Origin: a virus
Reading direction: 5' to 3' (one strand)
DNA: 21,788 nt
Virus record (IMG/VR): IMGVR_UViG_3300021197_000909
Span: 1 to 21,788 of that record
In this document: piece by piece, positions 1 to 11,133 of the stretch
Numbering within the stretch: position 1 is the stretch's first letter
Layout of the letters: each line of letters starts with the position of its first letter
Made by a program: the position numbers and the translations under genes
The notes under the pieces: model-generated
Told to the model about the DNA's origin: nothing
Databases searched by the model: none
Seen by the model: only the letters and a program-made list of their open reading frames with translations

Positions 1-156
1 GACACTATGATTCAAGATTTGTGGGATTTTCATTTTCATAGTATGTCGTTAACTGAACTTGTCGAGTTAGCTAAAAAACAACACGATTATAACTTGAGAA
101 AAAAAGAACCAACAGAGCTAATTGACCAATACAAACAGGTGTTTGGTAATTGGTAA
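1..156 (+). CDS. Hypothetical small protein, possibly 5'-truncated
   Basis: An open frame runs from the first base of the window to a TAA at 154-156. The first ATG in frame is at position 7, giving 49 residues, but the frame stays open to the window edge, so the true start may lie outside. The product is charged (Lys/Glu/Gln-rich second half, ending in FGNW) and looks helical. I recognise no family. The next gene on the same strand starts at 230, after a hairpin at 166-199. That a codirectional chain of early mini-genes follows supports it being real, but no ribosome binding site can be judged from six upstream bases. Confidence 0.45.
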   Translation, partial: DTMIQDLWDFHFHSMSLTELVELAKKQHDYNLRKKEPTELIDQYKQVFGNW

Positions 157-165
157 TCAAAAGAA

Positions 166-199
166 CCTCTGTAGGGTACCTTAAAACGCTCTACAGAGG
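166..199 (+). other. Intergenic stem-loop (perfect 9-bp stem)
   Basis: CCTCTGTAG at 166-174 is exactly complementary to CTACAGAGG at 191-199. Three more inner pairs (two of them G-U) extend it to 12 bp around a loop of about 10 nt. It lies just after the stop at 156 and before the Shine-Dalgarno of the gene at 230. The downstream bases are A/T-rich but are not an uninterrupted T-run, so it is either a weak terminator or an RNA processing/stability hairpin. Confidence 0.5.
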
Positions 200-229
200 G
201 CATTTAAAATTTATTTAGGAGTAGAATTA

Positions 230-400
230 ATGAGATGCAGAATTTGCAATACAAAATTAAAGGATTCGGAGTTGTCAAAAAAGGACAGTAGGGGTAATTT
301 CTTGGAGACATGCGGAAATTGCATGGCTTCGGTGTACGAAAGTTTAGATGATTTTACACCTTTTTTAAAAGATATTGAAAAACCACTTGACACGGATTAA
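230..400 (+). CDS. Zinc-ribbon microprotein (56 aa)
   Basis: ATG at 230 is preceded by AGGAG at 217-221, a good ribosome binding site at 8-nt spacing. The product has two CxxC knuckles, Cys3/Cys6 (CRIC) and Cys28/Cys31 (CGNC), with about 20 residues between them. That is the usual spacing of a zinc ribbon, followed by an acidic helical tail. A zinc-bound fold is likely and binding to DNA, RNA or a host protein is plausible, but nothing shows the target. A minus-strand open frame overlapping this gene is a shadow. The promoter at 387-415 overlaps its last codons. Confidence 0.7.
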   Translation: MRCRICNTKLKDSELSKKDSRGNFLETCGNCMASVYESLDDFTPFLKDIEKPLDTD

Positions 401-415
401 AACTATCATTAGTAT
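387..415 (+). promoter_or_regulatory. Sigma70-like promoter upstream of the 497 gene
   Basis: TTGACA at 387-392 (perfect -35) is followed after 17 bases by TAGTAT at 410-415 (4/6 match to the -10). A better -10 hexamer, TATACT at 413-418, would need a 20-bp spacer. It starts in the last codons of the preceding gene and fires into the gene-free gap before 497. Confidence 0.5.
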
Positions 416-483
416 ACTTAAGTAGTCAAGAGTTATTAACCTTAATCTTTACACTTAAAGTTAATTACTTAAGAATACTTAAG
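415..483. repeat. Three TACTTAAG repeats in the early intergenic gap
   Basis: The octamer TACTTAAG occurs at 415-422, 466-473 and 476-483, with a related ACTTAAAG at 453-460. The last two copies are exactly 10 bases apart, one helical turn. The first overlaps the -10/start region of the promoter at 387-415. The core CTTAAG is a palindrome. This layout suits binding sites for a regulator, but no binding protein can be named. Confidence 0.45.
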
Positions 484-496
484 AAGAGAGGATATT

Positions 497-664
497 ATGT
501 CTATTACTAAAAAGAAAAAACTTAACGGATGGAAAGTTAGGAATCCAGAGAAAGTAGTTCTTGACAAATACTACCATCCTAAGGTATTTAAGTCTAAAAA
601 GATTGGTCTCAGAGCTAAGGAAGCCGATCAAGAAGTAAAAGATTATTTAGAGGGTAAAATATAA
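497..664 (+). CDS. Small basic protein of unknown function (55 aa)
   Basis: ATG at 497 follows an AGAGAGGA ribosome binding site. The stop TAA at 662-664 shares its last A with the ATG of the next gene (TAATG), so the two are probably translationally coupled. The product is Lys-rich at the N-terminus (KKKK at residues 5-8), has a central 'DKYYHPKVFKSKK' segment and ends in a charged helix. No known motif or family was recognised. It is the first gene after the promoter and the TACTTAAG repeats, so it may be among the earliest expressed. Confidence 0.65.
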   Translation: MSITKKKKLNGWKVRNPEKVVLDKYYHPKVFKSKKIGLRAKEADQEVKDYLEGKI

Positions 665-1284
665 TGAACATATTCTATTTAGATAAATCATTTGCAAAAT
701 CAGCAAAGTATCATTGTGATAAGCATGTAGTCAAAATGATATTAGAAACTGCACAGCTACTGTCTACTGCACATAGAGAATTAGATGGCGATGAGTATGC
801 AGACAGCATGGGCTTATACAAAGCAACACACAAAAATCATCCATCTGCTGTGTGGGTACGTTCTAAAAAAGAATCATATGATTGGACTTACATGTTATTT
901 GTAAAATTATGTGAAGAGTACACAAGACGTTATCACAAGGAACATAAGTCTTCGAGACTGATACCGTGGCTTTTAGTGGCTCCAGAGAATATAGAGCCGT
1001 ATGATTGGTCTTCTATAAAAGATTTTGTACCGCCACCGCAATGTATGCCAGATGAATACAAACATAAAGATACTGTCACAGCGTATCGTAATTATTACAA
1101 AGGTGAGAAAGCGTATTTCGCAAAGTGGAATTATTCTCAAGTACCCCAATGGTGGGCAGATGATGATTATATTTACGATATAAAATGTGAAAATTGTGGA
1201 GACATGACTAATGCTTACGAAGCTTTTATTGTAGGTGATGAATACTTTTGTTGCGACTGTTGCCCAGATGACTATGGAGAATAA
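664..1284 (+). CDS. Conserved phage protein of unknown function with C-terminal zinc ribbon
   Basis: 206 aa. The N-terminus holds a dense conserved-looking block, 'YHCDKHVVKMILETAQLL' at about residues 17-34. It is followed by 'THKNHPSAVWVR' and 'PPQCMPDEYKHKD', then 'AYRNYYKGEKAYFAKW'. I recall this pattern from a widespread family of phage proteins with no proven function. The His/Asp/Lys-rich N-terminal block and the PPxxMP motif suggest an enzyme, but no catalytic assignment is safe. An added C-terminal part carries Cys175/Cys178 and a CCxCC cluster at 196-200, a probable zinc ribbon that fits the other zinc-ribbon genes nearby. The start overlaps the preceding stop by one base. Confidence 0.8.
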   Translation: MNIFYLDKSFAKSAKYHCDKHVVKMILETAQLLSTAHRELDGDEYADSMGLYKATHKNHPSAVWVRSKKESYDWTYMLFVKLCEEYTRRYHKEHKSSRLIPWLLVAPENIEPYDWSSIKDFVPPPQCMPDEYKHKDTVTAYRNYYKGEKAYFAKWNYSQVPQWWADDDYIYDIKCENCGDMTNAYEAFIVGDEYFCCDCCPDDYGE

Positions 1285-1286
1285 AC

Positions 1287-1373
1287 ATGGGTAAATTTTT
1301 TTGGGTTGCAATGCACATAATTACGTGTACAATGATCTGCATAGGAAACGCTAGAGTAATGGGGTGGTTATGA
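1287..1373 (+). CDS. Tiny membrane peptide (28 aa)
   Basis: ATG at 1287 lies 2 bases after the preceding stop, with GGAGA just upstream inside the end of that gene. The product is almost entirely hydrophobic: FFWVAMHIITCTMICIG forms one possible transmembrane helix, followed by a short polar and then apolar end (NARVMGWL). The stop overlaps the next start as ATGA. Position, ribosome binding site and coupling support translation. The function is unknown; small single-span peptides in early phage regions often act on host membrane proteins, but that is only analogy. Confidence 0.5.
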   Translation: MGKFFWVAMHIITCTMICIGNARVMGWL

Positions 1374-1519
1374 ACTGTTGGCACTGTAACACTGAGTTAA
1401 TTTGGGGTGGTGACCAAGATATAGATGATGAATTTTATGTCATGGTTACTAACTTGACTTGTCCTAAATGTGAGAGTATAGTGGATGTCTATTATCCAAA
1501 GGAGAAAGAAGATGACTGA
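1370..1519 (+). CDS. Zinc-ribbon microprotein, MNCWHC type (49 aa)
   Basis: ATG at 1370 overlaps the upstream TGA (ATGA). The product has Cys3/Cys6 (CWHC) and Cys31/Cys34 (CPKC) separated by an acidic loop (GGDQDIDDEF) and a short beta-like segment 'YVMVTNLT'. It ends in VDVYYPKEK. I recognise this as a recurrent small protein of marine phages, usually left as hypothetical. The fold is a one-zinc ribbon and the role is unknown. A sigma70-like promoter (1454-1482) sits in its second half. Confidence 0.75.
   Translation: MNCWHCNTELIWGGDQDIDDEFYVMVTNLTCPKCESIVDVYYPKEKEDD
1454..1482 (+). promoter_or_regulatory. Sigma70-like promoter inside the 1370 gene
   Basis: TTGACT (1454-1459, 5/6), a 17-bp spacer, then TATAGT (1477-1482, 5/6). 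It lies about 30 bases before the start at 1512 and would serve the following mini-genes. Confidence 0.45.
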
Positions 1520-1568
1520 AGTGTTTAAACAGTCTCTTAATTATAAGATACAGGAGTATCCTAAATGA
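1512..1568 (+). CDS. Possible 18-residue peptide or translational coupler
   Basis: ATG at 1512 has a strong AAGGAG ribosome binding site about 7 bases upstream. It overlaps the previous gene by 8 bases, and its TGA overlaps the next ATG (ATGA, 1565-1568). The peptide MTEVFKQSLNYKIQEYPK has no recognisable domain. It may be a real microprotein or a leader whose translation carries ribosomes to the 1565 gene. Confidence 0.35.
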   Translation: MTEVFKQSLNYKIQEYPK

Positions 1569-1702
1569 ATCCAGAATTTGAAGAGGAGTTAATAGGTTTG
1601 TTGGTAAAATATTACGGAACAAATTTTATTTATAGCAGTGACCCAGAGAGAAAAGGTCATTACATTAGACTTAATGTATGGGAGGAGGAAGAGAATGAGT
1701 AA
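1565..1702 (+). CDS. Small acidic protein (45 aa)
   Basis: ATG at 1565 is preceded by CAGGAG and overlaps the stop of the 18-residue frame. The product starts with an acidic helix (NPEFEEELIGLL), has a short middle (YGTNFIYSSDPERKG) and ends in EEEENE. No family was recognised. The GGAGGAGGAAGAG that encodes its acidic tail is also the ribosome binding site for the next gene at 1695, which explains both the overlap and the tail composition. Confidence 0.5.
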   Translation: MNPEFEEELIGLLVKYYGTNFIYSSDPERKGHYIRLNVWEEEENE

Positions 1703-1826
1703 TATACCCTTGATACACAAGCAACGTTTGTTGCAAAAGATTTACAGAAATGTAAAACTTGATAAGAGAGTCTTGACATACGAAAAGAAACCTATTACAC
1801 TGAAACGTGTAGATATAAAAGTTTAG
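1695..1826 (+). CDS. Small basic protein (43 aa)
   Basis: The start is placed at ATG 1695 (MSNIPLIHKQ), directly behind a strong purine-rich ribosome binding site (GGAGGAGG). The frame is open further upstream to 1638, but that extension overlaps the acidic protein at 1565 and lacks its own binding site. The product is strongly basic (many Lys/Arg, KKPITLKRVDIKV at the end), so nucleic-acid binding is possible. No family was recognised. It overlaps the previous gene by 8 bases. Confidence 0.55.
   Translation: MSNIPLIHKQRLLQKIYRNVKLDKRVLTYEKKPITLKRVDIKV
1773..1801 (+). promoter_or_regulatory. Sigma70-like promoter upstream of the 1837 gene
   Basis: TTGACA (1773-1778, 6/6), a 17-bp spacer, then TACACT (1796-1801, 4/6). 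It ends 35 bases before the ATG at 1837. Confidence 0.4.
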
Positions 1827-1836
1827 AGGTGACGAG

Positions 1837-2049
1837 ATGAAAGTTTATTTAGTTTTACAACATGACGGTTTTGAGTATTCCCATGTAGCAGGAGTATTCG
1901 AGAGTGAGGATTTAGCAGAAGAAGCTAGAGACCTCTACACAAGCAGTGACCAAGGACTTATGTTAAATTTTTATGTCAAAGAATTTAATGTTGAAAAAAG
2001 TCTTGACAGTCATTTTCCCTACGTATATACTACAGAAGAGTTACATTAA
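1837..2049 (+). CDS. Small conserved phage protein (70 aa)
   Basis: ATG at 1837 has AGAGGTGACGAG just upstream. The N-terminus 'MKVYLVLQHDG' followed by 'VAGVFESEDLAEEA' looks like a beta strand, a loop and a helix. This is the pattern of small phage proteins in which a 'YxVxxxG ... VFxxxxxAxxxA' core is conserved (DUF7336-like, from memory and unsure). The rest has no catalytic motif. The best promoter of the region (2003-2031) overlaps its 3' end and drives the SSB gene downstream. Confidence 0.7.
   Translation: MKVYLVLQHDGFEYSHVAGVFESEDLAEEARDLYTSSDQGLMLNFYVKEFNVEKSLDSHFPYVYTTEELH
2003..2031 (+). promoter_or_regulatory. Strong sigma70-like promoter for the SSB gene
   Basis: TTGACA (2003-2008, 6/6), exactly 17 bp, then TATACT (2026-2031, 5/6). 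It lies inside the end of the 1837 gene, 35 bases before the SSB start at 2067. It is one of the two best promoter matches in the window. Confidence 0.65.
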
Positions 2050-2066
2050 CCAATAGGAGTTTAGAC

Positions 2067-2447
2067 ATGATTACAGAAGGCGTAGTAGCATTTAGCAATT
2101 TATCCGAGACAGAGAAGTACAATGGTCAAGACACAGGTAAGTTTTCCATTGTGTTGACCCTTGAGGAAGACGAGGCTGGAAAGCTTTCGGATGCTGGTGT
2201 AAATGTTAAAGAGTACAAGAACCAACCACAGCGTAAGTTTGTGACAAAGTTTCCAGACTTTCCAGTAATGGATGCTGAGGGAGAGGTGATTGCGAAACAC
2301 ATACCGTATGGTTCTAAAGTACGTGTGTTGTGGGAGCCGAGCAAGCCACACCCGACCCACGGTGTTGCTCCGTACTTTAAGAAGATTAAAGTGCTTGAGT
2401 TAGCTACCCATGAGGGCGCAATGGCTGACGGTGATGAAGAGTTTTAA
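2067..2447 (+). CDS. Single-stranded DNA-binding protein, T7 gp2.5-like
   Basis: 126 aa with ATG at 2067 behind AATAGGAG. The body reads as an OB-fold protein with alternating strands (VVAFSNL, KFSIVLTL, RKFVTKF, SKVRVLWEP, PYFKKIKVLEL). It ends in an acidic tail, MADGDEEF, with a terminal Phe. In T7 gp2.5 an acidic tail with a C-terminal aromatic residue is needed for contact with the polymerase and helicase. At 126 aa it is shorter than T7 gp2.5 (232 aa) and closer to the short SSBs of marine podoviruses. Its place directly before primase-helicase, with its own promoter and terminator, suits a protein needed in large amounts. Confidence 0.8.
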   Translation: MITEGVVAFSNLSETEKYNGQDTGKFSIVLTLEEDEAGKLSDAGVNVKEYKNQPQRKFVTKFPDFPVMDAEGEVIAKHIPYGSKVRVLWEPSKPHPTHGVAPYFKKIKVLELATHEGAMADGDEEF

Positions 2448-2465
2448 CCCTCGTTGACTTAACTA

Positions 2466-2498
2466 GGAGCCTAGGGTAAAACCTAGGTTCCGCTTTTT
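2466..2498 (+). terminator. Rho-independent terminator after SSB
   Basis: A 10-bp stem (GGAGCCTAGG at 2466-2475 with CCTAGGTTCC at 2482-2491, one G-U pair) has a 6-nt loop and is followed by GC and five T (2494-2498). It separates the SSB gene from primase-helicase and would keep the strong SSB promoter from fully reading into the replication genes. Confidence 0.8.
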
Positions 2499-2513
2499 AA
2501 CAAGGAGATTATT

Positions 2514-4160
2514 TTGTTGCAAAAAGTTTCTAAAGTTACAGGCAAGAGTGCGTGTCCTAAGTGTCGAGAGAGTGGTAACGACAGATCAGGAGATAATTTA
2601 GTTTCCTATGATGACGGACACAAATACTGTTATGCTTGTAATTACACAGTGTTTAAACAGGATGCCTTTGAGCAACCTAAAATAATTAAAACAAAACGAG
2701 GATTTGAAATGTCAGGTGTAAGTGGTGCTATAAAAGATAGACGTATATCGGAAAGCATTGTAAGAAAGTTTGGAGTTACTCTGGAGAAGAACGCAGATGG
2801 TAGTGTTGATAAACATCATTATCCGTATCATGACAAAGATACAGGAGAGGCGGTAGGTACAAAAGTCCGTACAGTAGCAACTAAGAATTTCCACGCTACA
2901 GGGACACTAGAGAATACTGGATTGTTCGGACAACAAATATGGCGAGAGGGTGGTAAATTTGTCACAGTAGTTGAGGGTGAGTTAGATGCCCTAGCGGTGG
3001 CAGAGATGTTTGACGGTAAGTGGCCCGTGGTATCAATCAAGACAGGTTCCGCTGGAGCATTGAAGGACATCAAAGCTAACCTAGAGTGGCTAGAAACTTT
3101 TGAAAATGTTGTGATCTGTTTTGATATGGACGATGCTGGAAAGAAAGCAGTAGATAGCATACTACCGTTGTTCTCTCATAACAAAGCAAAGGTTGTTTCT
3201 CTCCCTCTTAAGGATGCTGGAGAAATGTTACAGGCCAGTAGAGTTCAAGAGTTCGTGAGTTCATGGTGGGACGCTAAACCCTACAGACCAGTAGGAGTAG
3301 TGTCGTTCGGTGACGAGGAGTGTTGGGATGCTTTCATCAAACGTGGCACAGAGGAGATCATACCTTTACCAGATGCCTATGGGTCATTAAATGTAATGAT
3401 GAATGGTGGTCTAGCCACAGGTGAGGTCACTGTGATAGGTGCTTTAACTTCAATCGGTAAAACCACAATGGTATTTAATCTCCTTTACGACATGGTGTTA
3501 CAATCAAATAAAAAGATTGGTGCAGTGTTGTTAGAGTCAGACCTAGGTGAGACCATTGAGAAGATTGTATCGTTACATAGTGGTGAGAACATTAGTATAG
3601 TCCCATCAGAAACTAGGGATAACTCTTTATACCGTGACTTCTACGATGACTTCAAAAGTAAATCTAATGTGCATATACTGAAACACCTAGGTTTCTCTGA
3701 TGTTGATGCGTTGTTCTCTAAGATGAGGTGGATGGCTGTGGGTGATGACTGTGATGTTATTCTTCTTGACCCTTTACATGCAGCAGTCAGATCAAATGAG
3801 AATGGACAGATAGATGAGTTCATGGATAGATGTCTTAAGTTAGCTAAGGAGACAGGAGTATCTATTGTTATCGTGTCACACATGAGGAAGCCTAACGTCA
3901 AAGACCCACACGATGTCAACGAGTACGACATGAAGGGGTCAGGATCGATCAATCAGATAGCTTTTAACACAATCTTACTAAGTCGTGACAAGATGTCTGA
4001 GGATCAGTACACTAGAAATTCCACTAAGGTACAGCTAGTGAAGTGTCGTAGGACAGGACGCACTGGACACGCTGGATGGTTGTACTATGAGGAAGGCACA
4101 GGGCGTATGGTTGCTGGTGTGGAACCTAAAGTAAAGGCGGTAGAAGATGAGGAGTTTTGA
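2514..4160 (+). CDS. Bifunctional DNA primase-helicase, T7 gp4-like
   Basis: 548 aa. It unwinds DNA at the fork and makes lagging-strand primers. In order: a zinc-binding domain (Cys14/Cys17 CPKC and Cys39/Cys42 CYAC); a TOPRIM primase core (VVEGELD with Glu154; CFDMDDAG with Asp204/Asp206); and a RecA-type hexameric helicase. The helicase shows Walker A GALTSIGKTT at 309-318, Walker B VILLDP with Asp419, SHMRKP with His456, and arginine-finger motif CRRTGRTG with Arg512. The tail VEDEEF ends in Phe, as in T7 gp4, where the acidic Phe-ended tail docks on the polymerase. The start is TTG at 2514, 6 bases after AAGGAG; no in-frame ATG lies upstream and the next one (2709) would delete the zinc domain. 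The 3' end overlaps the HNH gene by 14 bases. Confidence 0.95.
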   Translation: MLQKVSKVTGKSACPKCRESGNDRSGDNLVSYDDGHKYCYACNYTVFKQDAFEQPKIIKTKRGFEMSGVSGAIKDRRISESIVRKFGVTLEKNADGSVDKHHYPYHDKDTGEAVGTKVRTVATKNFHATGTLENTGLFGQQIWREGGKFVTVVEGELDALAVAEMFDGKWPVVSIKTGSAGALKDIKANLEWLETFENVVICFDMDDAGKKAVDSILPLFSHNKAKVVSLPLKDAGEMLQASRVQEFVSSWWDAKPYRPVGVVSFGDEECWDAFIKRGTEEIIPLPDAYGSLNVMMNGGLATGEVTVIGALTSIGKTTMVFNLLYDMVLQSNKKIGAVLLESDLGETIEKIVSLHSGENISIVPSETRDNSLYRDFYDDFKSKSNVHILKHLGFSDVDALFSKMRWMAVGDDCDVILLDPLHAAVRSNENGQIDEFMDRCLKLAKETGVSIVIVSHMRKPNVKDPHDVNEYDMKGSGSINQIAFNTILLSRDKMSEDQYTRNSTKVQLVKCRRTGRTGHAGWLYYEEGTGRMVAGVEPKVKAVEDEEF

Positions 4161-4542
4161 TATAAAGGGTAAAGTAAATAGATCAGAATATTTAAGAAAA
4201 AGAACTGGTTACGCTTGCGAAGTTTGCGGAGAAAAATACCCAGAAGAACTTTTAGAACTACATCATCCAGAAGGTGTGAAAAAGGAACGGAATTTTGACT
4301 CCCATACGTGGAGAAAAATAAAACAGGAAGTTATTGACGAAGCAGATAAATGTGTTATACTGTGTAGTAACTGTCACAAGCTTGAGCATATAGCGTTAAG
4401 AAAGGGTGAGACTTTAATCAATGACAAAGAAGCTTATTCTAGATATAGAAACCACCGCTTTTCCAGTTACAAAGGTTTGGATGATCGGGACGAAAGACAT
4501 ACAAACGGGGACGAAGAAGAATTTCCTTGCGCCCCTATCTGA
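4147..4542 (+). CDS. HNH endonuclease, probably a free-standing homing-type nuclease
   Basis: 131 aa. The HNH core is complete: CEVC (Cys24/Cys27), ELHH (His39/His40) and CSNCHKLEH (Cys73, Cys76, His77, His81), giving the metal site and the zinc-binding knuckles. The N-terminal 'NRSEYLRKRTGYACEVC' is typical of phage HNH proteins. It starts 14 bases inside primase-helicase and runs 122 bases into DNA polymerase in another frame. Residues 92-131 therefore use the polymerase exonuclease coding DNA and lie outside the nuclease core. Insertion between two essential replication genes is the usual behaviour of a selfish homing nuclease. A promoter (4334-4361) inside it could serve the polymerase. 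Confidence 0.85.
   Translation: MRSFDIKGKVNRSEYLRKRTGYACEVCGEKYPEELLELHHPEGVKKERNFDSHTWRKIKQEVIDEADKCVILCSNCHKLEHIALRKGETLINDKEAYSRYRNHRFSSYKGLDDRDERHTNGDEEEFPCAPI
4334..4361 (+). promoter_or_regulatory. Sigma70-like promoter inside the HNH gene, upstream of polymerase
   Basis: TTGACG (4334-4339, 5/6), a 16-bp spacer, then TATACT (4356-4361, 5/6). It lies 60 bases before the polymerase ATG at 4421. Its -10 region TGTGTTATACTG matches 11 of 12 bases of the promoter at 8156-8183. Confidence 0.45.
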
Positions 4543-6157
4543 AACAAAACAAATACAGGAGTACATTGATGGATTTGATACTATTATTGGTCACAATATT
4601 CTTGGGTTCGACTCCCCTATTGTAGAGAAGTTCTTAGGCGTAACGTTTAAACAGCATGAGATTATAGATACGTTGACTTTATCTAGACTTTATAACCCAC
4701 AGCTAGAGGATGGACATTCTCTCAAAGCTTGGGGAGAAAGACTTAAGTTTCCTAAGGGAGACCATGATGATTGGACTAAGCTAACACCTGAGATGATTAA
4801 GTACTGTGAACAAGATTGTGACGTAACTCATAAAGTTTATGATTTACTTACTCAAAGACTTGAGAAGTTTGGTGATACGAGTGTAACTCTGGAACATGAA
4901 GTACAAAAAGTTATCGTTAAACAGACTGAGAATGGTTGGTTATTGGATCAGAGAAAGTGTGTTGATTTACTAGCCAGATTGAAACAAAGAAAGATGGAGA
5001 TAGAAGATGAAGTACACGAAAAGTTTAAGCCGTTACCTGTTTTTGTTAAAGAGATCACGCCTAAGTACAATAAAGATGGCAGACTCAGCACTGTGGGTCT
5101 TAAGTTTCTTAGTGATTGCGACAGGGGCTTTGTATCTGGTTCATTTAGTAGAATAGATTGGCCTGAGTTTAACCTAGGTTCTAGGCAACAGATCGGAAGA
5201 TACTTACAGTTTTTCGGATGGAAGCCTGAGACATACACTGAGAAGGGAAACGTAATTGTCGATGAAGCAGTCCTTAGTAAAGTCAAGAAGATACCTGAAG
5301 CTTCTCTTATCGCTGAGTACTTACTGGTACAGAAGCGTATGGCACAGATAGATTCATGGCTAGAAGGAGTAGAAGAGGACGGAAGAGTTCATGGTTACGT
5401 TAACCCTATCGGTGCTGTAACGGGACGTATGACACACAGCAGTCCCAATATGGCTCAGGTTCCAGCGAGTTACTCACCTTACGGTGGCGAGTGTCGGAGT
5501 TGTTGGGTAGTTCCTAAAGGTTACAAGTTAGTAGGTGTTGATGCTTCAGGATTAGAGTTGAGGATGTTGGCACATTACATGGACGATAAGGAGTATACCC
5601 ATGAAGTTATTAATGGAGACATACACACAGTTAATCAAAACTCAGCAGGACTTACAACAAGAGACAACGCAAAGACTTTTATCTATGCTTTCCTATATGG
5701 AGCAGGGGACGCTAAAATCGGAAGTGTTGTTGGAGGCAATAGCAGAGATGGGGCAAAGCTCAAGAAAAAATTTCTCGACAACACTCCGTCTCTTAGAGAC
5801 CTTAGAGAAAGAGTTGAGCGTAGTTCCCAAAGAGGATACCTCAAAGGACTTGACGGAAGAAAGCTAATCATAAGATCAGCACACGCTAGTTTAAACACTC
5901 TTTTACAATCCGCTGGTGCAATTATTATGAAAAAAGCCTTGACACTGTTAAATGAGTATGCGATACTACATAATATAGACTATAAATTCGTAGGTAATAT
6001 TCACGATGAATTTCAAGCGGAAGTTCGGGAAGACCAAGTAGATAATTTTGGATGGTTAGCTGTAGAGTGTATTAAGTCAGCAGGTCTAAAGTTTAACTTA
6101 AGATGTCCCTTAGATGGGGAATATAAAATCGGAAACAACTGGGCTGAAACCCACTAG
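4421..6157 (+). CDS. DNA polymerase, family A, T7 gp5-like
   Basis: 578 aa; it replicates the phage genome. N-terminal 3'-5' exonuclease: DIET (Asp8/Glu10), GHNILGFD (Asp64), YCEQDCD (Asp132). Polymerase domain: motif A VDASGLELR (Asp374), motif B RDNAKTFIYAFLYGAG (Arg414, Lys418, Tyr422, Tyr426), motif C HDE (528-530). The position equal to E. coli Pol I Phe762 is Tyr422, as in T7. It is shorter than T7 gp5 (704 aa). About 40 residues (roughly 210-250) lie between the palm-side ITPK and the FNLGSRQQIG motif, where T7 has its thioredoxin-binding loop. The start at 4421 is needed to keep the exonuclease DxE motif; only a weak AAGGGTGAG precedes it. The first 122 bases overlap the HNH gene. Confidence 0.95.
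   Translation: MTKKLILDIETTAFPVTKVWMIGTKDIQTGTKKNFLAPLSETKQIQEYIDGFDTIIGHNILGFDSPIVEKFLGVTFKQHEIIDTLTLSRLYNPQLEDGHSLKAWGERLKFPKGDHDDWTKLTPEMIKYCEQDCDVTHKVYDLLTQRLEKFGDTSVTLEHEVQKVIVKQTENGWLLDQRKCVDLLARLKQRKMEIEDEVHEKFKPLPVFVKEITPKYNKDGRLSTVGLKFLSDCDRGFVSGSFSRIDWPEFNLGSRQQIGRYLQFFGWKPETYTEKGNVIVDEAVLSKVKKIPEASLIAEYLLVQKRMAQIDSWLEGVEEDGRVHGYVNPIGAVTGRMTHSSPNMAQVPASYSPYGGECRSCWVVPKGYKLVGVDASGLELRMLAHYMDDKEYTHEVINGDIHTVNQNSAGLTTRDNAKTFIYAFLYGAGDAKIGSVVGGNSRDGAKLKKKFLDNTPSLRDLRERVERSSQRGYLKGLDGRKLIIRSAHASLNTLLQSAGAIIMKKALTLLNEYAILHNIDYKFVGNIHDEFQAEVREDQVDNFGWLAVECIKSAGLKFNLRCPLDGEYKIGNNWAETH
5939..5967 (+). promoter_or_regulatory. Sigma70-like promoter inside the polymerase 3' end
   Basis: TTGACA (5939-5944, 6/6), a 17-bp spacer, then GATACT (5962-5967, 4/6). 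It lies about 200 bases before the exonuclease ATG at 6166. Confidence 0.35.
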
Positions 6158-6165
6158 GAGATGAC

Positions 6166-7044
6166 ATGAGTAAAACATTAGACACACTAGTAGAAGACAT
6201 CTATACGTTAATGAAGAATAAAAACACAGCTAAAGGTGTTGACCCTGAAGCAGAGATAGAGAAGTTCGGGGAGTCACTTAAGGACCTAATGAAGAAAGAG
6301 TTCCTACCTTCTAATCACCGTTATGATGGACGTAAGCTAAGGCTGTCTGCTATAGGCAAACCAGACTTACAACAATGGTACTCAGTGAACAACTACACTG
6401 GAGAGAAACTACAACCACACACCTTAATCAAGTTTATGTATGGTCATTTGATTGAAGAGTTTCTTCTCATGCTTGTTCGTATGACGGGGCATGAGGTTAC
6501 CGATGAACAGAAGGAAGTGTCAGTAGGTGGTGTTAAAGGACACATGGACTGTAAGATAGATGGTACTGTAGTTGACGTTAAGTCTACAACTGCTTTCGGT
6601 ATGAAGAAGTTTAAGGACGGAACCTTAGCAATGAATGATGACTTCGGTTATGTAGATCAGATCAAAGCATATGCTCATGCAGAAGGTGACCGTAAGTGGG
6701 CGTGGTTGGCTATGGATAAACAGAATGGTACTCTGGCGGTGCTTGAGTATGACTTAGATGATACTAAACATCCCATGTATAAGTACTACTCAGGTGACAT
6801 TGAGGAGCGTGTGTCACATGTAAAAAAGTCCGTAGAGCAGGAAGACCGTCCTGCGCCATGCTCTTCTCCAGTACCAGATGGGCGTTCTGGAAATGTAAAA
6901 CTATCTACTATGTGTTCTTACTGTCAGTACAAAGCACATTGCTACCCAAGCTTAAGAGCCTTTTCTTATTCTACTGGTCCAAGGTTTTTGACCCAAGTAA
7001 ATAATAAGCCACAGGTTCCTGAGATTAACCTTAACAAACAATAG
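6166..7044 (+). CDS. PD-(D/E)XK exonuclease, RecB/Cas4-like
   Basis: 292 aa. The nuclease core is visible as GHLIEE (Glu97/98), GHMDCKIDG (Asp128) and VVDVKST (Asp137, Lys139), followed by 'DQIKAYAHA', the Q-containing helix of RecB-type nucleases. The C-terminal part has four cysteines, Cys232, Cys250, Cys253 and Cys259 (C-x17-CxxC-x5-C), suited to an iron-sulphur cluster as in AddB/Cas4 nucleases, or to zinc. The Cas4-type N-terminal cysteine is not seen, so all four candidate ligands lie after the core. By position between polymerase and endonuclease I it probably does the job of T7 gp6: host DNA breakdown, primer removal and recombination. The start ATG at 6166 is preceded by TAGGAG. Confidence 0.85.
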   Translation: MSKTLDTLVEDIYTLMKNKNTAKGVDPEAEIEKFGESLKDLMKKEFLPSNHRYDGRKLRLSAIGKPDLQQWYSVNNYTGEKLQPHTLIKFMYGHLIEEFLLMLVRMTGHEVTDEQKEVSVGGVKGHMDCKIDGTVVDVKSTTAFGMKKFKDGTLAMNDDFGYVDQIKAYAHAEGDRKWAWLAMDKQNGTLAVLEYDLDDTKHPMYKYYSGDIEERVSHVKKSVEQEDRPAPCSSPVPDGRSGNVKLSTMCSYCQYKAHCYPSLRAFSYSTGPRFLTQVNNKPQVPEINLNKQ

Positions 7045-7053
7045 GAGATACTA

Positions 7054-7260
7054 ATGGCTAAAGAGTTTAAAGTTATCAACACCCCACGACATGATCGTTT
7101 TGAAGAAACAATAACAAAACTTCTTAACGATGGTTGGGAACTACACGGGAGTCCTTTTGTTTCTCAGACAGGAGGGATGACACAGGCTTTACTAAGGGAA
7201 CCTAAGGCATCGTTTAAACAACCTGCTAAGGCTAAAGCTAAGACTAATGAAGTATCGTAA
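7054..7260 (+). CDS. DUF1737-like small protein
   Basis: 68 aa with ATG at 7054 behind AATAGGAG. The core 'FKVINTPRHDRFEETITKLL' then 'DGWELHGSPFVSQTGGMTQALLRE' fits the DUF1737 pattern: a strand, a helix, 'GWexxGg', then a strand ending in QA(L/M). The function of that family is not known. A basic Ala/Lys-rich tail (KQPAKAKAKT) follows and may bind nucleic acid. It overlaps endonuclease I by 14 bases, so the two are probably coupled. Confidence 0.75.
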   Translation: MAKEFKVINTPRHDRFEETITKLLNDGWELHGSPFVSQTGGMTQALLREPKASFKQPAKAKAKTNEVS

Positions 7261-7603
7261 CAAGTTTGAAGCTCAAATTGCAGAGGTCTTGGGTGACCTC
7301 TGTAGTTACGAATCAAAACAAATACCTTACATAGTTAATAGAATGTATATTCCTGATTTCATAGGGATGAAAGGTAAGTTTGAGATTTTAGTTGAAGCTA
7401 AAGGTTACTTTAGAGTGGGAGACATCCAGAAGTACAAAGCAATTAGGGATAGTCTGCCGAAGAAAAAGCAACTGGTGTTTTTATTATACAACCCATATAA
7501 AAAAGTAAGGAAGGGAAGTAAGATGAATATGGCAGAATGGTGTGACAAAGAAAACATGAAGTGGTACACTGTGGAGAATATCAAAGATGCCTTTACCAAC
7601 TAA
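7247..7603 (+). CDS. Endonuclease I (Holliday junction resolvase), T7 gp3-like
   Basis: 118 aa. It cuts branched DNA and, in T7, also degrades host DNA. The PD-(D/E)XK active site can be aligned with T7 gp3: Glu8 (KFEAQIAEVL), Asp37 (YIPDF), Glu50 and Lys52 (VEAKG). The second half, 'KGSKMNMAEWCDKENMKW', also parallels the T7 'KGS...EFCEKHGIKF' segment. It is shorter than T7 gp3 (149 aa), lacking the N-terminal extension and basic tail. ATG at 7247 lies inside the preceding gene, with TAAGG upstream. A stem-loop at 7281-7302 lies in its first codons. Confidence 0.9.
   Translation: MKYRNKFEAQIAEVLGDLCSYESKQIPYIVNRMYIPDFIGMKGKFEILVEAKGYFRVGDIQKYKAIRDSLPKKKQLVFLLYNPYKKVRKGSKMNMAEWCDKENMKWYTVENIKDAFTN
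7281..7302 (+). other. Stem-loop in the first codons of endonuclease I
   Basis: CAGAGGTC (7281-7288) is perfectly complementary to GACCTCTG (7295-7302) with a 6-nt loop TTGGGT; two flanking pairs may extend it. It lies about 35 bases after the start codon. The right arm region contains CCTCTGTAG (7297-7305), the same 9-mer as the left arm of the hairpin at 166-199. It could slow translation or be a processing site. Confidence 0.45.
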
Positions 7604-7766
7604 ACAATTCTTGAACAGAGTATCTAACTTAGCGGAACCTTCTTACTTGTGTGAGGTTCTTAACATAACTTCCGAAGATTTGATAGAGAGATTTGGAGAT
7701 TTAATAGAACACAACATTGAAGACCTTAGAGAAGTTTTTGACGTTGACTTAGAGATTGAGGAGTAA
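7587..7766 (+). CDS. Small acidic helical protein (59 aa)
   Basis: ATG at 7587 overlaps the end of endonuclease I by 17 bases, with GTGGAGAA upstream. The product is helical and acidic: 'YLCEVLNITSEDLIERF' and 'EDLREVFDVDLEIEE'. I have seen similar short proteins with a 'YLCExLxIsSEeLlexF' pattern in marine phages, always without a function. The GAGGAG encoding its end is the ribosome binding site for the next gene. Confidence 0.65.
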   Translation: MPLPTKQFLNRVSNLAEPSYLCEVLNITSEDLIERFGDLIEHNIEDLREVFDVDLEIEE

Positions 7767-7770
7767 TAAC

Positions 7771-7992
7771 ATGGCTGACTATCCTGAAGACATGATGACT
7801 ATGATGATGCCTGACATTCTTGTAGTGCGTATGGAGCAAGTACGTAAGCTTATAAAAGATTTAAAGGATGCTGATGACGTATGCGCCCCTTTACTTATAG
7901 ACGCTATTGACATTCTTTTACAAAGTTGTGAGTTTAAGGAAAAGCCTAAGATAACTCATGAGGGTTATGACAACATAACTCCTTTGAATTAG
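7771..7992 (+). CDS. Hypothetical small protein (73 aa)
   Basis: The start is ATG 7771 (MADYPEDMMTMMM), 7 bases after GAGGAG. A TTG five codons upstream is also in frame but overlaps the previous stop and the binding site. The N-terminus is unusually Met-rich (MMTMMMPD at residues 7-14). The rest is two amphipathic helices (MEQVRKLIKDLKDADD and APLLIDAIDILLQSCEF) and a polar tail. No family was recognised. It sits in the chain leading to the RNR. Confidence 0.65.
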   Translation: MADYPEDMMTMMMPDILVVRMEQVRKLIKDLKDADDVCAPLLIDAIDILLQSCEFKEKPKITHEGYDNITPLN

Positions 7993-8001
7993 GAGAATAT
8001 T

Positions 8002-8244
8002 ATGAAGACATTATTCTTGATAATTATAATGGTGTATCACGATGGTAGTTTAGGGTACGACATACAGCAAAACCATGTTGACTTGGATATAGAAAGATGT
8101 CGTAAAGTGGTAGCACCTCAATTTATATATAAATATCTCAACAGTGGTAAAGTAGTTGACATCACTACCAAGTGTGTTATAATGATTAAACCAGTTGAGA
8201 AAAAAGATAAAGAGGAGAACAGTGTTGAGCAACCAAGTGTCTGA
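8002..8244 (+). CDS. Small protein with hydrophobic N-terminus (80 aa)
   Basis: ATG at 8002 behind TAGGAG. It begins MKTLFLIIIMVYHDG, a short hydrophobic segment that is either a weak signal sequence or a buried strand. Two cysteines follow (about residues 33 and 58) and then a Lys/Glu-rich tail. The pattern 'MKTLFL..MV..DGS.GY' is familiar from small marine phage proteins of unknown function. The best promoter of the window (8156-8183) lies in its 3' third, and the DUF3310 gene starts inside its end. Confidence 0.65.
   Translation: MKTLFLIIIMVYHDGSLGYDIQQNHVDLDIERCRKVVAPQFIYKYLNSGKVVDITTKCVIMIKPVEKKDKEENSVEQPSV
8156..8183 (+). promoter_or_regulatory. Consensus sigma70-like promoter upstream of DUF3310 and RNR
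   Basis: TTGACA (8156-8161, 6/6), a 16-bp spacer, then TATAAT (8178-8183, 6/6), the only perfect pair of hexamers found. It lies 41 bases before the DUF3310 start at 8225 and would drive DUF3310 and RNR. The hexamers fall inside a coding sequence (codons for VDIT and KCVIM). Confidence 0.65.
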
Positions 8245-8491
8245 AGAAAAGTTTTTCCCTGATGGCAACAACGATCCAGTAAACAGTCCTTCACATTATA
8301 ACATGCTGGACGTTGAAGCTATTGACCTGATAGAGATGTCCATGACTAGGGATGATTTCTTAGGGTATCTTAAGGGAAACGCAATGAAATATATAATCAG
8401 GTACAAACACAAAGGTAAACCTGATCAAGACATAAGCAAAGCAATTTGGTATTTAGAGAAGTTAAAGGGGAAAGTTAAAGATGGAGAGTGA
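8225..8491 (+). CDS. DUF3310 protein
   Basis: 88 aa. The family signature is clear: 'DPVNSPSHYNMLDVEAIDLIE', then 'GYLKGNAMKYIIRYKHKG' and 'DISKAIWYLEKLK'. DUF3310 proteins are frequent in phages, are sometimes called nucleotide kinases without good proof, and often sit beside nucleotide-metabolism genes, as here beside the RNR. There is no ATG in the right place. AGGAG at 8213-8217 favours TTG at 8225 (7-nt spacing) over GTG at 8222 (4-nt spacing). The frame is open back to 8195 but that part has no binding site. It overlaps the gene before by 20 bases and RNR by 11. Confidence 0.85.
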   Translation: MSNQVSEEKFFPDGNNDPVNSPSHYNMLDVEAIDLIEMSMTRDDFLGYLKGNAMKYIIRYKHKGKPDQDISKAIWYLEKLKGKVKDGE

Positions 8492-10172
8492 AATGCACTA
8501 CGGTATGACATTGCCAATATCAGAAGAGATAGACACAGTTAAGTACAGACAGACAGGCGAGGACTTCTACAGTAAAGTAGTACGTATAGCTGAGTCCCTT
8601 AAGGATAGCCCTGATCACTTTGAGAACTTCAAGGATGCACTTAGGCATCTTAGGTTTCTACCTGCTGGTAGGGTACAGAACGCTATGGGTGCTGCAAGAC
8701 AGACCACCGCTTATAACTGCTTTGTCAGTGGAGTTATAGACGACAGCATGGACTCTATCATGGGAAGAGCTACAGAGGCTGCAGAGACCATGCGTAGAGG
8801 CGGTGGCATAGGCTATGACTTCAGTAGGCTACGTCCCAGAGGAGATCGTATCAAGTCTTTGGACTCTAGGGCATCAGGTGCAGTTAGCTTTATGCAGATT
8901 TATGATTCTGTCTGTCAGACCATAGCATCTAGTGGACACCGTAGAGGAGCGCAGATGGGTGTCTTACGTATAGACCATCCAGACATTGAACAGTTTATCA
9001 CCGCTAAGAACAACGGTACAGCCTTAACTGGTTTCAACATTTCAGTAGGTGTAACAGATGAGTTCATGAGATGCCTAGAGAAGAAAGAACCATTCCCTCT
9101 ACGGTTTGACGGTAGGGTGCATGAAGAGGTAGACCCTGTAGCACTGTGGGACATGGTTATGCGTAGCACATGGGATTGGGCAGAGCCGGGAGTGTTGTTC
9201 ATAGATACCATTAACAAGATGAATAACTTATACTATTGTGAGAATATAGAGGCAACAAACCCGTGTGGTGAGCAACCTCTGCCTCCTTACGGTGCTTGTT
9301 TGCTAGGTAGTTTTAACTTGACTAAGTATGTAGGAGCAAGTGCGTTTGATTATGGTCTGTTCACTGGTGACATTCACCATGTAGTCAGAGCTATGGATAA
9401 TGTTATTGATAGGACTATATATCCTCTGGAAGCACAAGAGAAAGAAGCTAAGAACAAGCGTAGGATGGGACTAGGTATTACAGGACTAGCCAATGCAGGT
9501 GAGATGTGTGGTATGCCTTATGGATCAGAAGAGTTTATGAAGTTTACTACTAAGGTTCTTAAGTCACTTCGAGACCATACTTACTCAGCTAGTTCTATGT
9601 TGGCTCAGGAGAAGGGTTCTTTCCCACTCTATGATAAAAATAAATACATAGAGGGTAAGTTCTTTAAGACACTATCTCCTTGGGTACAGGATCAGATTAA
9701 AGAGTTTGGTATACGTAACTCTCACCTGACTTCCATAGCACCCACAGGTACAATCAGTCTCACAGCAGACAACGTAAGCTCTGGCATTGAACCACCGTTT
9801 AGTTTGTTTTATGACAGAACCATACAGGAGTTTGATGGTCATCAGATACAGAGAGTAGAGGACTATGCTTACAGACAGGGTGTGAACGGTAGAACTGCCA
9901 ATGAGATTAGTGCCGAAGAACATCTCTCAGTCCTTGCCTTGACCTCTAAGTACATAGATAGTGCAGTCAGTAAGACCTGTAACGTAGGTGACAATGTAAC
10001 TTACGATGCGTTTAAACAGCTTTATTATAATGCTTGGAAGCAGGGATGCAAAGGCATCACTACATTCAGAGCTAGTGGTAAACGTTATGGTATACTGAAT
10101 GAGGTTAAAGATGAGCCTAAAGCAGAAGCTTGTTTCATAGACCCACAGACAGGTCAGAAAGAGTGTGAGTAA
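8481..10172 (+). CDS. nrdJ: Ribonucleotide reductase, class II (adenosylcobalamin-dependent)
   Basis: 563 aa. It turns ribonucleotides into deoxyribonucleotides for phage DNA synthesis using vitamin B12 as radical source. The catalytic site NPCGEQPL carries Asn260, the thiyl Cys262 and Glu264. The redox pair is Cys80 (YNCFV) and Cys273 (GACLLGSFNL); the 11-residue gap between Cys262 and Cys273 is the same as I recall in the Thermotoga class II enzyme. PTGTISL and 'GCKGITTFRASGKR' are further family motifs. A C-terminal CFIDPQTGQKEC supplies cysteines for re-reduction. No ATP cone and no class I small subunit gene are seen. The start may be ATG 8481 or ATG 8493; the second has GGAG 6 bases upstream. 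Confidence 0.92.
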   Translation: MESEMHYGMTLPISEEIDTVKYRQTGEDFYSKVVRIAESLKDSPDHFENFKDALRHLRFLPAGRVQNAMGAARQTTAYNCFVSGVIDDSMDSIMGRATEAAETMRRGGGIGYDFSRLRPRGDRIKSLDSRASGAVSFMQIYDSVCQTIASSGHRRGAQMGVLRIDHPDIEQFITAKNNGTALTGFNISVGVTDEFMRCLEKKEPFPLRFDGRVHEEVDPVALWDMVMRSTWDWAEPGVLFIDTINKMNNLYYCENIEATNPCGEQPLPPYGACLLGSFNLTKYVGASAFDYGLFTGDIHHVVRAMDNVIDRTIYPLEAQEKEAKNKRRMGLGITGLANAGEMCGMPYGSEEFMKFTTKVLKSLRDHTYSASSMLAQEKGSFPLYDKNKYIEGKFFKTLSPWVQDQIKEFGIRNSHLTSIAPTGTISLTADNVSSGIEPPFSLFYDRTIQEFDGHQIQRVEDYAYRQGVNGRTANEISAEEHLSVLALTSKYIDSAVSKTCNVGDNVTYDAFKQLYYNAWKQGCKGITTFRASGKRYGILNEVKDEPKAEACFIDPQTGQKECE

Positions 10173-10338
10173 AGATGAGGGAGTTGGCATAGCTGGTGCG
10201 ATGGATTACGTACCAGCAGACCAACGTGACTTTAATTTTTATTGTCACAAATGTGGCAAAGGACATGAGAACCCTTATGGGGCCAGTGCGTGTCCTTTGA
10301 TATTTTGGTGTAGTAAGGAGTGTTTTGATGCAAGGTGA
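10165..10338 (+). CDS. Zinc-finger microprotein (57 aa)
   Basis: The best start is GTG at 10165, overlapping the RNR end by 8 bases; an in-frame ATG at 10201 would still keep the cysteines. Cysteines at 27, 30 (CHKC), 43, 49 and 53 (WCSKEC), plus His34, suggest a zinc-binding finger. The final 'WCSKECFDAR' looks like the end of a treble-clef or MYM-type finger. The function is unknown. The ribosome binding site is weak, so translation may depend on coupling to RNR. It overlaps the next gene by 11 bases. Confidence 0.6.
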   Translation: MSKDEGVGIAGAMDYVPADQRDFNFYCHKCGKGHENPYGASACPLIFWCSKECFDAR

Positions 10339-10573
10339 TACTAAAGATTACATATGGAGACTTAAGTGGGTATCATCAGTTGTTCTTATGTTTGCGATGA
10401 TACTTACTGCACAAAACATATATCCCTACAATCTGTTTTTTCATTTTGCAGGGATATTAGGTTGGTTAATAGTTTCTATAAATTGGAACGATAGGGCATT
10501 GATAGTCGTTAACAGCGTAGCCATAGCTATACTGACTAACGGTATCTTTGCTTACTATGTTAAAATATACTAA
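10328..10573 (+). CDS. Three-TM small membrane protein, DUF6552-like
   Basis: 81 aa; ATG at 10328 with AAGGAG about 8 bases upstream. Three predicted transmembrane helices lie at about residues 13-29, 35-51 and 57-77. The motifs 'DYIWRLKWVSS', 'LTAQNIYPYN' and 'GWLIVSINWNDRALIVVN' match a small family I remember from marine bacteria and phages (DUF6552, naming from memory), of unknown role. It is the last gene of the plus-strand module and its 3' end overlaps a convergent minus-strand frame by 14 bases. Confidence 0.75.
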   Translation: MQGDTKDYIWRLKWVSSVVLMFAMILTAQNIYPYNLFFHFAGILGWLIVSINWNDRALIVVNSVAIAILTNGIFAYYVKIY

Positions 10574-10670
10574 AGATTAGACGACCACATCTAGAACATT
10601 TATTGGGGTTACTTTCTTCCATTTTATGCCAGAAAATCCAGCAACGTATATCTTTAAGTATTTGAAACAT
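10560..10670 (-). CDS. Possible CxxC microprotein (36 aa)
   Basis: On the minus strand an ATG at 10670 is preceded by CAGGGGACACTG, whose AGGGG is a fair ribosome binding site at about 6-nt spacing. The 36-residue product has an aromatic, partly hydrophobic first half (MFQILKDIRCWIFWHKM), then NKCSRCGRLIFSIF with a CSRCGR knuckle like half a zinc ribbon. It would be the last gene of the minus-strand module. Its last 14 bases overlap the end of the convergent three-TM gene. No homologue is recalled with confidence. Confidence 0.45.
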   Translation of the reverse strand: MFQILKDIRCWIFWHKMEESNPNKCSRCGRLIFSIF

Positions 10671-10758
10671 CAGTGTCCCCTGTAGTGTTTAGTGTGTTCC
10701 CAAAATTGTCTAAAGTAATATCTTTCTCTGGCTACTAGCCGTTTAAACAGTCTTAAGA

Positions 10759-10869
10759 TCATCCGTAACCATACATTTTTTTCTTAGATGATTTCTTTTT
10801 AGCATATGACTTGCTCTTTTTCTTGCTATAGCCTTTACCGCTTTTCATCTTTGCTACTTTACTTCCCAT
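10759..10869 (-). CDS. Lys-rich small basic protein (36 aa)
   Basis: ATG at 10869 follows GGGAGATTACA, with GGGAG as ribosome binding site, 12 bases after the previous gene. Nearly half the residues are Lys, with Ser, Gly and Tyr (KKKSKSYAKKKSSKKK), ending in MYGYG. A charge of this kind points to DNA binding or packing inside the capsid. It is too short for any domain and the role is inferred only from composition and its place at the end of the structural genes. Confidence 0.6.
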   Translation of the reverse strand: MGSKVAKMKSGKGYSKKKSKSYAKKKSSKKKMYGYG

Positions 10870-10881
10870 TGTAATCTCCCT

Positions 10882-11133
10882 TTACCATTTTTTACAGGAC
10901 CAATATCTTGCACTTAGTTTACTAGGAGGACTAGTATCACACCTGTGTCTAGCCCTAAAGCTTTTTCTTCTCGCTGGCTGGTCTTTCTTTATAGTCATGT
11001 TAGGATCGCCAAACCTAACTAACTTCACTTGCTCACCTTGTTTAGCTAACACTGCGAACTTCTTATTCTTCTTAGGTGTTCTCTTGGGCTTATTGTAACC
11101 TGAGAACCTCTCTCCTCTGTATTCTACTGACAT
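10882..11133 (-). CDS. Conserved small basic phage protein (83 aa)
   Basis: It starts immediately after the stop of the 495-aa gene. The first part is 'YRGERFSGYNKPKRTPKK', then 'FAVLAKQGEQVKLVRFGDP', 'RRKSFRARHRC' and 'KLSARYWSCKKW'. This pattern is very conserved among marine phages (DUF5872/DUF6321-type from memory, name unsure): a small strand-rich basic protein with an Arg/His stretch and C-terminal 'sAxYWsckxW'. A virion or DNA-bound role is likely from charge and location, but unproven. Confidence 0.75.
   Translation of the reverse strand: MSVEYRGERFSGYNKPKRTPKKNKKFAVLAKQGEQVKLVRFGDPNMTIKKDQPARRKSFRARHRCDTSPPSKLSARYWSCKKW

Follow-up and report, generated by a model that had tools for sequence, protein, structure and literature searches.

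Nuclease genes beside phage replication genes

The usual view of mobile nucleases is that they leave host genes unharmed or are removed by splicing. In T7-like phages, HNH nucleases linked to DNA polymerase genes include T7 gp5.3 and F-LimA. An intron nuclease linked to the DNA polymerase gene is reported for the T7-like phage Pf-WMP3 (PMC3428280). Among the free-standing HNH (mob) and GIY-YIG (seg) endonucleases of phage T4, several overlap the upstream gene by 11–24 bp (PMC2988022). The ShiLan domain is an out-of-frame HNH within a mycobacteriophage DNA methylase and terminates where the insertion ends (PMC11855218). The T7 gp4 helicase and the gp2.5 SSB contact T7 polymerase through acidic C-terminal tails (PMC5997990, PMC5686142).

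The locus described here lies in IMG/VR virus record IMGVR_UViG_3300021197_000909 (positions 1 to 21,788; the whole stretch of 21,788 bases is called the window). Judged from sequence comparison, and with rather more confidence than doubt, it is read as a homing-type nuclease slot of T7-like phages in which an acidic tail is overprinted on the polymerase gene. Like the T4 mob and seg genes, the nuclease is a lone gene between conserved phage genes, but, unlike the upstream overlaps reported for T4, the overprinting affects its 3' end and the polymerase gene that follows, by 116–173 nt among the relatives (PMC2988022). As with ShiLan, an HNH overlaps another phage gene in a different frame and is probably mobile (PMC11855218); in contrast to it, the nuclease frame continues into ordinary sequence of the polymerase, and its tail is common to unrelated nucleases. 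An insertion of the ShiLan type within another gene was rejected, since the insertion precedes the polymerase ATG and the polymerase is uninterrupted. The tie between an HNH nuclease and a T7-like polymerase gene is shared with T7 gp5.3, F-LimA and Pf-WMP3, from which the window differs in that the nuclease precedes and overlaps the polymerase and in that window positions 1–12000 gave no Rfam match at the gathering threshold, so that a group I intron homing endonuclease was also rejected. The acidic tail resembles those of T7 gp4 and gp2.5: the helicase and the SSB-like protein of the window (2067–2447) both end in DEEF and the nuclease tail holds DEEEF, although the nuclease motif is internal and missing from some members, and the likeness is one of sequence. 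Among open-access papers, judged by title and opening lines of the abstract, the arrangement was not recognised beyond the T4, ShiLan and T7-like polymerase-linked precedents.

Organisation of the locus

Pfam and PHROGs matches give the plus-strand order SSB-like protein, primase-helicase, HNH ORF, family A DNA polymerase, Cas4-like exonuclease, phage endonuclease I, ribonucleotide reductase (Table 1). The TTG start of the primase-helicase is an assignment by the ORF caller. The HNH ORF opens with the ATG at 4147 and closes with the TGA at 4540–4542. As the initial annotation had it, this ORF overlaps both neighbours: its coordinates share 14 nt with the primase-helicase and 122 nt with the polymerase, which starts at the ATG at 4421 and relative to which the nuclease is read in the -1 frame. 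The overprinted helix segment covers the polymerase start together with exonuclease motif I (DIET). Upstream of the replication genes, an ORF at 664–1284 matches a pyrimidine dimer glycosylase (PF03013, E 4.2e-8; phrog_624). The helicase C-terminus is Phe in all 33 ends listed, mostly preceded by acidic residues, like the T7 replisome tails.

Table 1. Features of the helicase–polymerase junction and of the polymerase gene in the window.
Feature	Position	Strand	Remarks and basis
Primase-helicase (T7 gp4-like)	2514..4160	+	Tail contains the nuclease start; Pfam and PHROGs matches
AAGGCGGT followed by ATG	4134..4149	+	Likely ribosome-binding site and nuclease start; sequence, relatives
HNH nuclease ORF, 131 aa, overprinted tail included	4147..4542	+	ORF list, PHROGs, alignment, AlphaFold2
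HNH core, residues 24-81 (CxxC, HH, CxxCHxxEH)	4216..4389	+	PHROGs, alignment
GGTGA and new polymerase ATG, within the nuclease gene	4405..4423	+	Sequence, relatives
Overprinted helix, nuclease residues 93-106	4423..4464	+	Basic; restrained silent sites; prediction
Overprinted acidic tail, nuclease residues 107-129	4465..4533	+	Predicted disordered; open frame kept, sequence free
Family A DNA polymerase with 3'-5' exonuclease start	4421..6157	+	Pfam and PHROGs
Nested ORF, 88 aa, polymerase +1 frame from codon 394	5601-5867	+	Stop counts, relatives

The nuclease is clearly recognised in PHROGs (phrog_3106, E 2.5e-20) and weakly in Pfam (PF21368, E 0.0013, under the cut-off), while NCBIfam gave no match to the ORF. 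Cys24, Cys27, His39, His40, Cys73, Cys76 and His77 are invariant among 28 aligned sequences, so that the HNH motif of a free-standing homing endonuclease is present by both PHROGs and alignment. A PDB profile search with the HNH gave a single match (E 0.078), and a PDB fold search with the model gave none at E <=0.001. The AlphaFold2 model, built from 28 sequences, places helices at residues 94–101 and 103–106 and has pLDDT below 50 only at residues 107–130. The initial annotation had put the whole tail from residue 92 outside the nuclease core; by this prediction that description suits residues 107–130 and fails for the two helices.

Relatives and groups

Scans of IMG/VR with the HNH and the polymerase yielded at least 237 usable polymerase loci, and de-duplication, which removed near-copies, left 85 (170 loci became 67 in the first set, 237 became 85 in the second). 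The polymerase scans kept the best 80 matches, so that losses among close kin may be missed. By hits, 31 representatives, window included, have an HNH or GIY-YIG match in the slot and 54 have none; the latter become 52 after dropping L188, a contig cut in the slot, and L200, which holds another nuclease, and these 52 still include L241 with its HNH-like ORF. In the early open-frame, silent-site and shuffle counts the groups were defined by the length of the overlap, a circular criterion where stops are counted, and the stop count was later repeated with groups set by nuclease match alone. All p-values are nominal, because the lineages share ancestry.

An open frame over the polymerase start

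The -1 frame stays open for at least 31 codons beyond the exonuclease DIE motif in 30 of the 31 sampled representatives with an HNH or GIY-YIG match and in none of the 52 without. The one exception, L038, has a distant HNH in the slot and an overlap of only 17 nt; among the 54 without a match, L188 and L200 are the two with an open frame. Single nuclease-less loci depend on the DIE pattern used, the first of two patterns returning L217 (34 codons), L254 (32) and L230 (45) as open and the second L230 alone, whose 45 open codons are a matter of chance. In L241 the HNH-like ORF, identified by eye, closes two codons past the motif. A nuclease can thus occupy the slot without the tail, as L038 and L241 do.

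Synonymous shuffling, in which codons were redrawn from each gene's own usage, leads to an expectation of 1.9 open frames in 29 for the group set by overlap length. In polymerase codons 1–37, the 30 representatives have no -1 stop against 77 expected (33.8 + 43.1), and stops resume from codon 38 (74 in codons 38–60 against 79.3 expected). With all 31 included, codons 1–37 hold seven stops, every one in L038, against 83.5 expected, whereas the 52 nuclease-less representatives have 243 against 193. The +1 frame has no such gap over codons 1–37 in the same shuffle comparison. A chance overlap or run-on was ruled out by these shuffles. A fusion by programmed frameshift was set aside as well, no common shift motif being seen by eye at the stops.

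Two parts of the overprinted segment

Among pairs up to 80% identical, observed over expected conservation at the silent sites of codons 1–14 is 1.36 in the tail-bearing group and 0.98 in the other; the contrast is smaller (1.35 against 1.11) for pairs 60–90% identical. Further along, the tail-bearing group is not raised (0.75 in codons 15–27, 0.90 in codons 28–40), and silent sites of codons 15–40 are much diverged, with the same codon in 33–42%. In disjoint pairs, third-position differences drop to 0.17 from 0.36 in codons 7–12 and to 0.28 from 0.42 in codons 13–19; the drop is absent in codons 1–6 (0.31 against 0.29) and little or none in codons 20–37 (0.38 and 0.37 against 0.39 and 0.43). 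The boundary between restrained and free codons coincides with that between helix and disorder in the AlphaFold2 model. A conserved tail sequence is thereby supported for codons 1–14 and unsupported for codons 15–37. Elsewhere in the polymerase, silent sites are most conserved in codons 386–425.

Codons 15–37 nevertheless show a bulk effect on charge. Over the 31 representatives the -1 product carries -3.7 against +0.15 in open shuffles. Per 10 codons the shift is -1.44, compared with -0.35 at the same place in the 53 others and a range from -0.56 to +0.34 in nine later windows of the frame. Codons 1–14 shift the opposite way (+1.33), and the +1 frame over codons 15–37 shows an opposite but smaller shift. 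Tails are more acidic than expected in 17 of 18 lineages less than 80% identical (nominal Fisher p 2e-8); the exception is L142, whose tail falls short of the expected acidity, and several others are near neutral. Third-position G in codons 15–37 is 0.41, compared with 0.25 in codons 100–300 and 0.23 in the other group. The silent codons of the polymerase thus appear tuned to keep the tail open and acidic, and the shuffles suggest selection for these two properties. Both frames of the overprinted pair show signs of selection, weak as regards sequence in codons 20–37. The proposal that the two genes limit each other's change agrees with the restrained silent sites of codons 1–14 and with the missing stops and acidic shift of codons 15–37; of the two signs named in advance against it, free variation is seen in codons 15–37 and stops are not.

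Insertion at the junction

In 42 of the 52 nuclease-less representatives the helicase stop lies no more than 16 nt from the polymerase start, or beyond it, which supports the insertion of the nuclease between these replication genes. Among the matches listed, the nearest nuclease-less relatives by identity are L035 and L196 (polymerase 65% and 69% identical, respectively; -1 frame with stops), in which the polymerase ATG lies within the helicase tail and the two genes share 14 nt. One tree places the two within the tail-bearing group, and a more careful one just outside it with weak support (70/89). Their empty slots may reflect a clean loss of the nuclease, contrary to the initial annotation, or its original absence. 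The nuclease ATG of the window corresponds to their polymerase start, so that the nuclease uses what is apparently the older polymerase start position; 28 of 31 tail-bearing representatives have a nuclease-frame ATG at -14 or -11 relative to the helicase end, and 26 of 31 have GGTGA or GGAGAG, by eye, 5' of the polymerase start. As expected of a free-standing homing endonuclease, the nuclease has its own gene between conserved genes and, by the Rfam search of window positions 1–12000, no intron around it.

Where this arrangement is absent, HNH ORFs end 2–14 aa past CxxCHxxxH (nine ORFs: those of L101, L102 and L174–L178, the post-polymerase one of L035, and that of L038; two pairs are near-copies), compared with 43–67 aa in the 28 tail-bearing HNH representatives. 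The suggestion that the nuclease lost its own stop fits these lengths, and the short ends elsewhere make it probable that the tail was gained in the slot by reading into the polymerase, once or more than once, since L199–L201 form a separate branch. Taken together, insertion, read-through and mutual constraint as first proposed hold up on junction gaps, short HNH ends elsewhere and silent sites, stops and charge, while the placement of the entire tail outside the fold does not. A scan of bacterial genomes with the HNH profile gave 52 loci, and 3 of the 52 matches listed extend beyond residue 95 and 2 beyond residue 100 in the numbering of the window protein.

Other insertions of about 490–525 nt occupy the helicase–polymerase gap in L057, L235, L232, L233, L237 and L238, all without a long overlap, and the ORF of the L057 insertion has no Pfam match. 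In L035, whose slot is without a nuclease, an HNH ORF directly follows the polymerase (L035:5139–5423). The Roseobacter phages CRP-361 and CRP-227 (L101 and L102) have an unannotated HNH ORF between polymerase and thymidylate synthase at about 4001–4264.

Exchange of nuclease cores

On both sides of the slot (1.7 kb upstream, 5.2 kb downstream) the window matches L010 at about 98% identity, and the flanks of L012 are similarly close, but the nuclease itself differs from the ATG in the helicase tail to the GGTGA before the polymerase. The window core is 46% identical to those of L010 and L012, a figure taken from L111 and L112, which are further cuts of these two contigs. A GIY-YIG nuclease in the slot (PF10544, E 4.6e-13) also carries the tail: between L133 (HNH) and L256 (GIY-YIG), polymerase codons 6–19 are 95% and codons 20–37 100% identical, with a mean of 81% in codons 80–430, although codons 52–79 are also high (94%). 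A third core, an endonuclease-VII-like ORF (phrog_3322, E 7.6e-16; phrog_1035, endonuclease VII), has the same tail in L200. The sequences thus display a pattern in which unlike cores (HNH alleles, GIY-YIG, endonuclease-VII-like) are exchanged between two shared edges; recombination in which these edges served as homology arms is the probable route. Signs of mobility are likewise visible in alleles or presence differing between close relatives, namely the core swap of L010 and L012 and the empty slots of L035 and L196.

Beside the nuclease, the primase-helicase of L017, L033, L142, L157 and L173 is divergent (43–46%, or 30% over a partial match), while the polymerase, and the SSB and exonuclease where present, stay close; these five appear to have had their helicase gene replaced.

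A second hidden ORF inside the polymerase

Of 68 representatives examined, 61 have an ATG-started ORF of at least 60 aa nested in the polymerase +1 frame, whether or not they carry the nuclease. In codons 394–475 the +1 frame has 12 stops against 147 expected in the 31 tail-bearing representatives and 23 against 243 in the 53 others, with sharp edges, and a large +1 charge shift occurs at the nested ORF in codons 406–519 of both groups; the most conserved silent sites of the polymerase are close by. AGGAG or AAGGA precedes the start in 58 of 75. The product is predicted to be a helical hairpin (mean pLDDT 77, pTM 0.40) and has no PHROG match. In HTVC103P, HTVC104P and HTVC115P only 'DNA polymerase' is annotated under the ORF, and among open-access papers, judged by title and opening lines of the abstract, none was recognised as describing it. 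By stop counts and relatives, 5601–5867 looks like an unannotated nested gene kept across the family.

Alternative explanations

The main rival takes the peptide as inert and gives the open frame a role in translation: ribosomes on the nuclease frame would have to pass the polymerase start and end beyond codon 38, keeping the start region unfolded or limiting the output of polymerase or nuclease. The polymerase start signal within the nuclease gene, the sharp return of stops at codon 38 and the free sequence of the tail are all compatible with it. It leaves unexplained why the tail is acidic relative to open shuffles and why nuclease-less relatives lack that shift, and it is regarded as unlikely. 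Selection on the DNA or RNA itself, with the segment serving as homology arm, nuclease target or RNA signal and openness arising as a by-product, would account for the near-identical tail segment of L133 and L256 despite their different nucleases and for the restraint in codons 1–14; codons 15–40 are nevertheless much diverged yet stop-free to codon 37, and the charge shift is frame-specific, which makes this a very improbable cause. Hardly credible is a plain run-on, in which a stop was lost once and the open frame inherited by accident: tail-bearing polymerases are close kin and HNH ORFs elsewhere are short, but the product of the probabilities of an open frame in codons 15–37 over 18 lineages less than 80% identical is 4e-15, which strongly disfavours it.

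A domesticated nuclease, no longer homing, would serve the phage in recombination, replication or attack on competitors, tail included. In line with this, the HNH Cys/His set is invariant and, judging from dN/dS, the cores are under purifying selection (0.03–0.35 in nine of ten pairs picked by hand, the tenth being saturated; final 80 core codons). Cores exchanged within near-identical flanks, or across nuclease families, and the empty slots look like mobility, and domestication is a possible but rather doubtful account. A role of the tail as a peptide is favoured. Its most specific form, in which the polymerase -1 frame is a reusable docking tail that tethers any core in the slot to the replisome and silent codons are selected for charge, is itself put forward tentatively, as an improbable one.

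A probable nuclease tail written in polymerase sequence

In the favoured reading of a homing-type slot, a free-standing nuclease gene occupies the primase-helicase/polymerase junction of T7-like phages and, as comparison shows, takes the start position that the polymerase uses in the nearest nuclease-less relatives, leaving the polymerase to start inside the nuclease gene. The nuclease frame then runs about 38 codons into the polymerase: the first 14 overprinted codons are predicted to form a basic helix that completes the HNH fold, and the next 23 would form a disordered acidic C-terminal tail, its lack of fold predicted and selection on it suggested by the shuffles. The polymerase would bear the cost as restricted silent codons at the exonuclease start. 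The tail may dock on the replisome, by analogy with the T7 tails, or its charge may act as a brake that limits how far the nuclease binds DNA non-specifically, which would fit as well.

The nuclease C-terminus would thus have been extended into the exonuclease start of an essential polymerase, an arrangement that has lasted while silent sites diverged widely. It may offer a natural, testable case of one sequence encoding two unrelated proteins, the one dependent on exact residues, the other chiefly on an open frame and its charge, and it suggests how unlike nuclease cores could be swapped between fixed edges.
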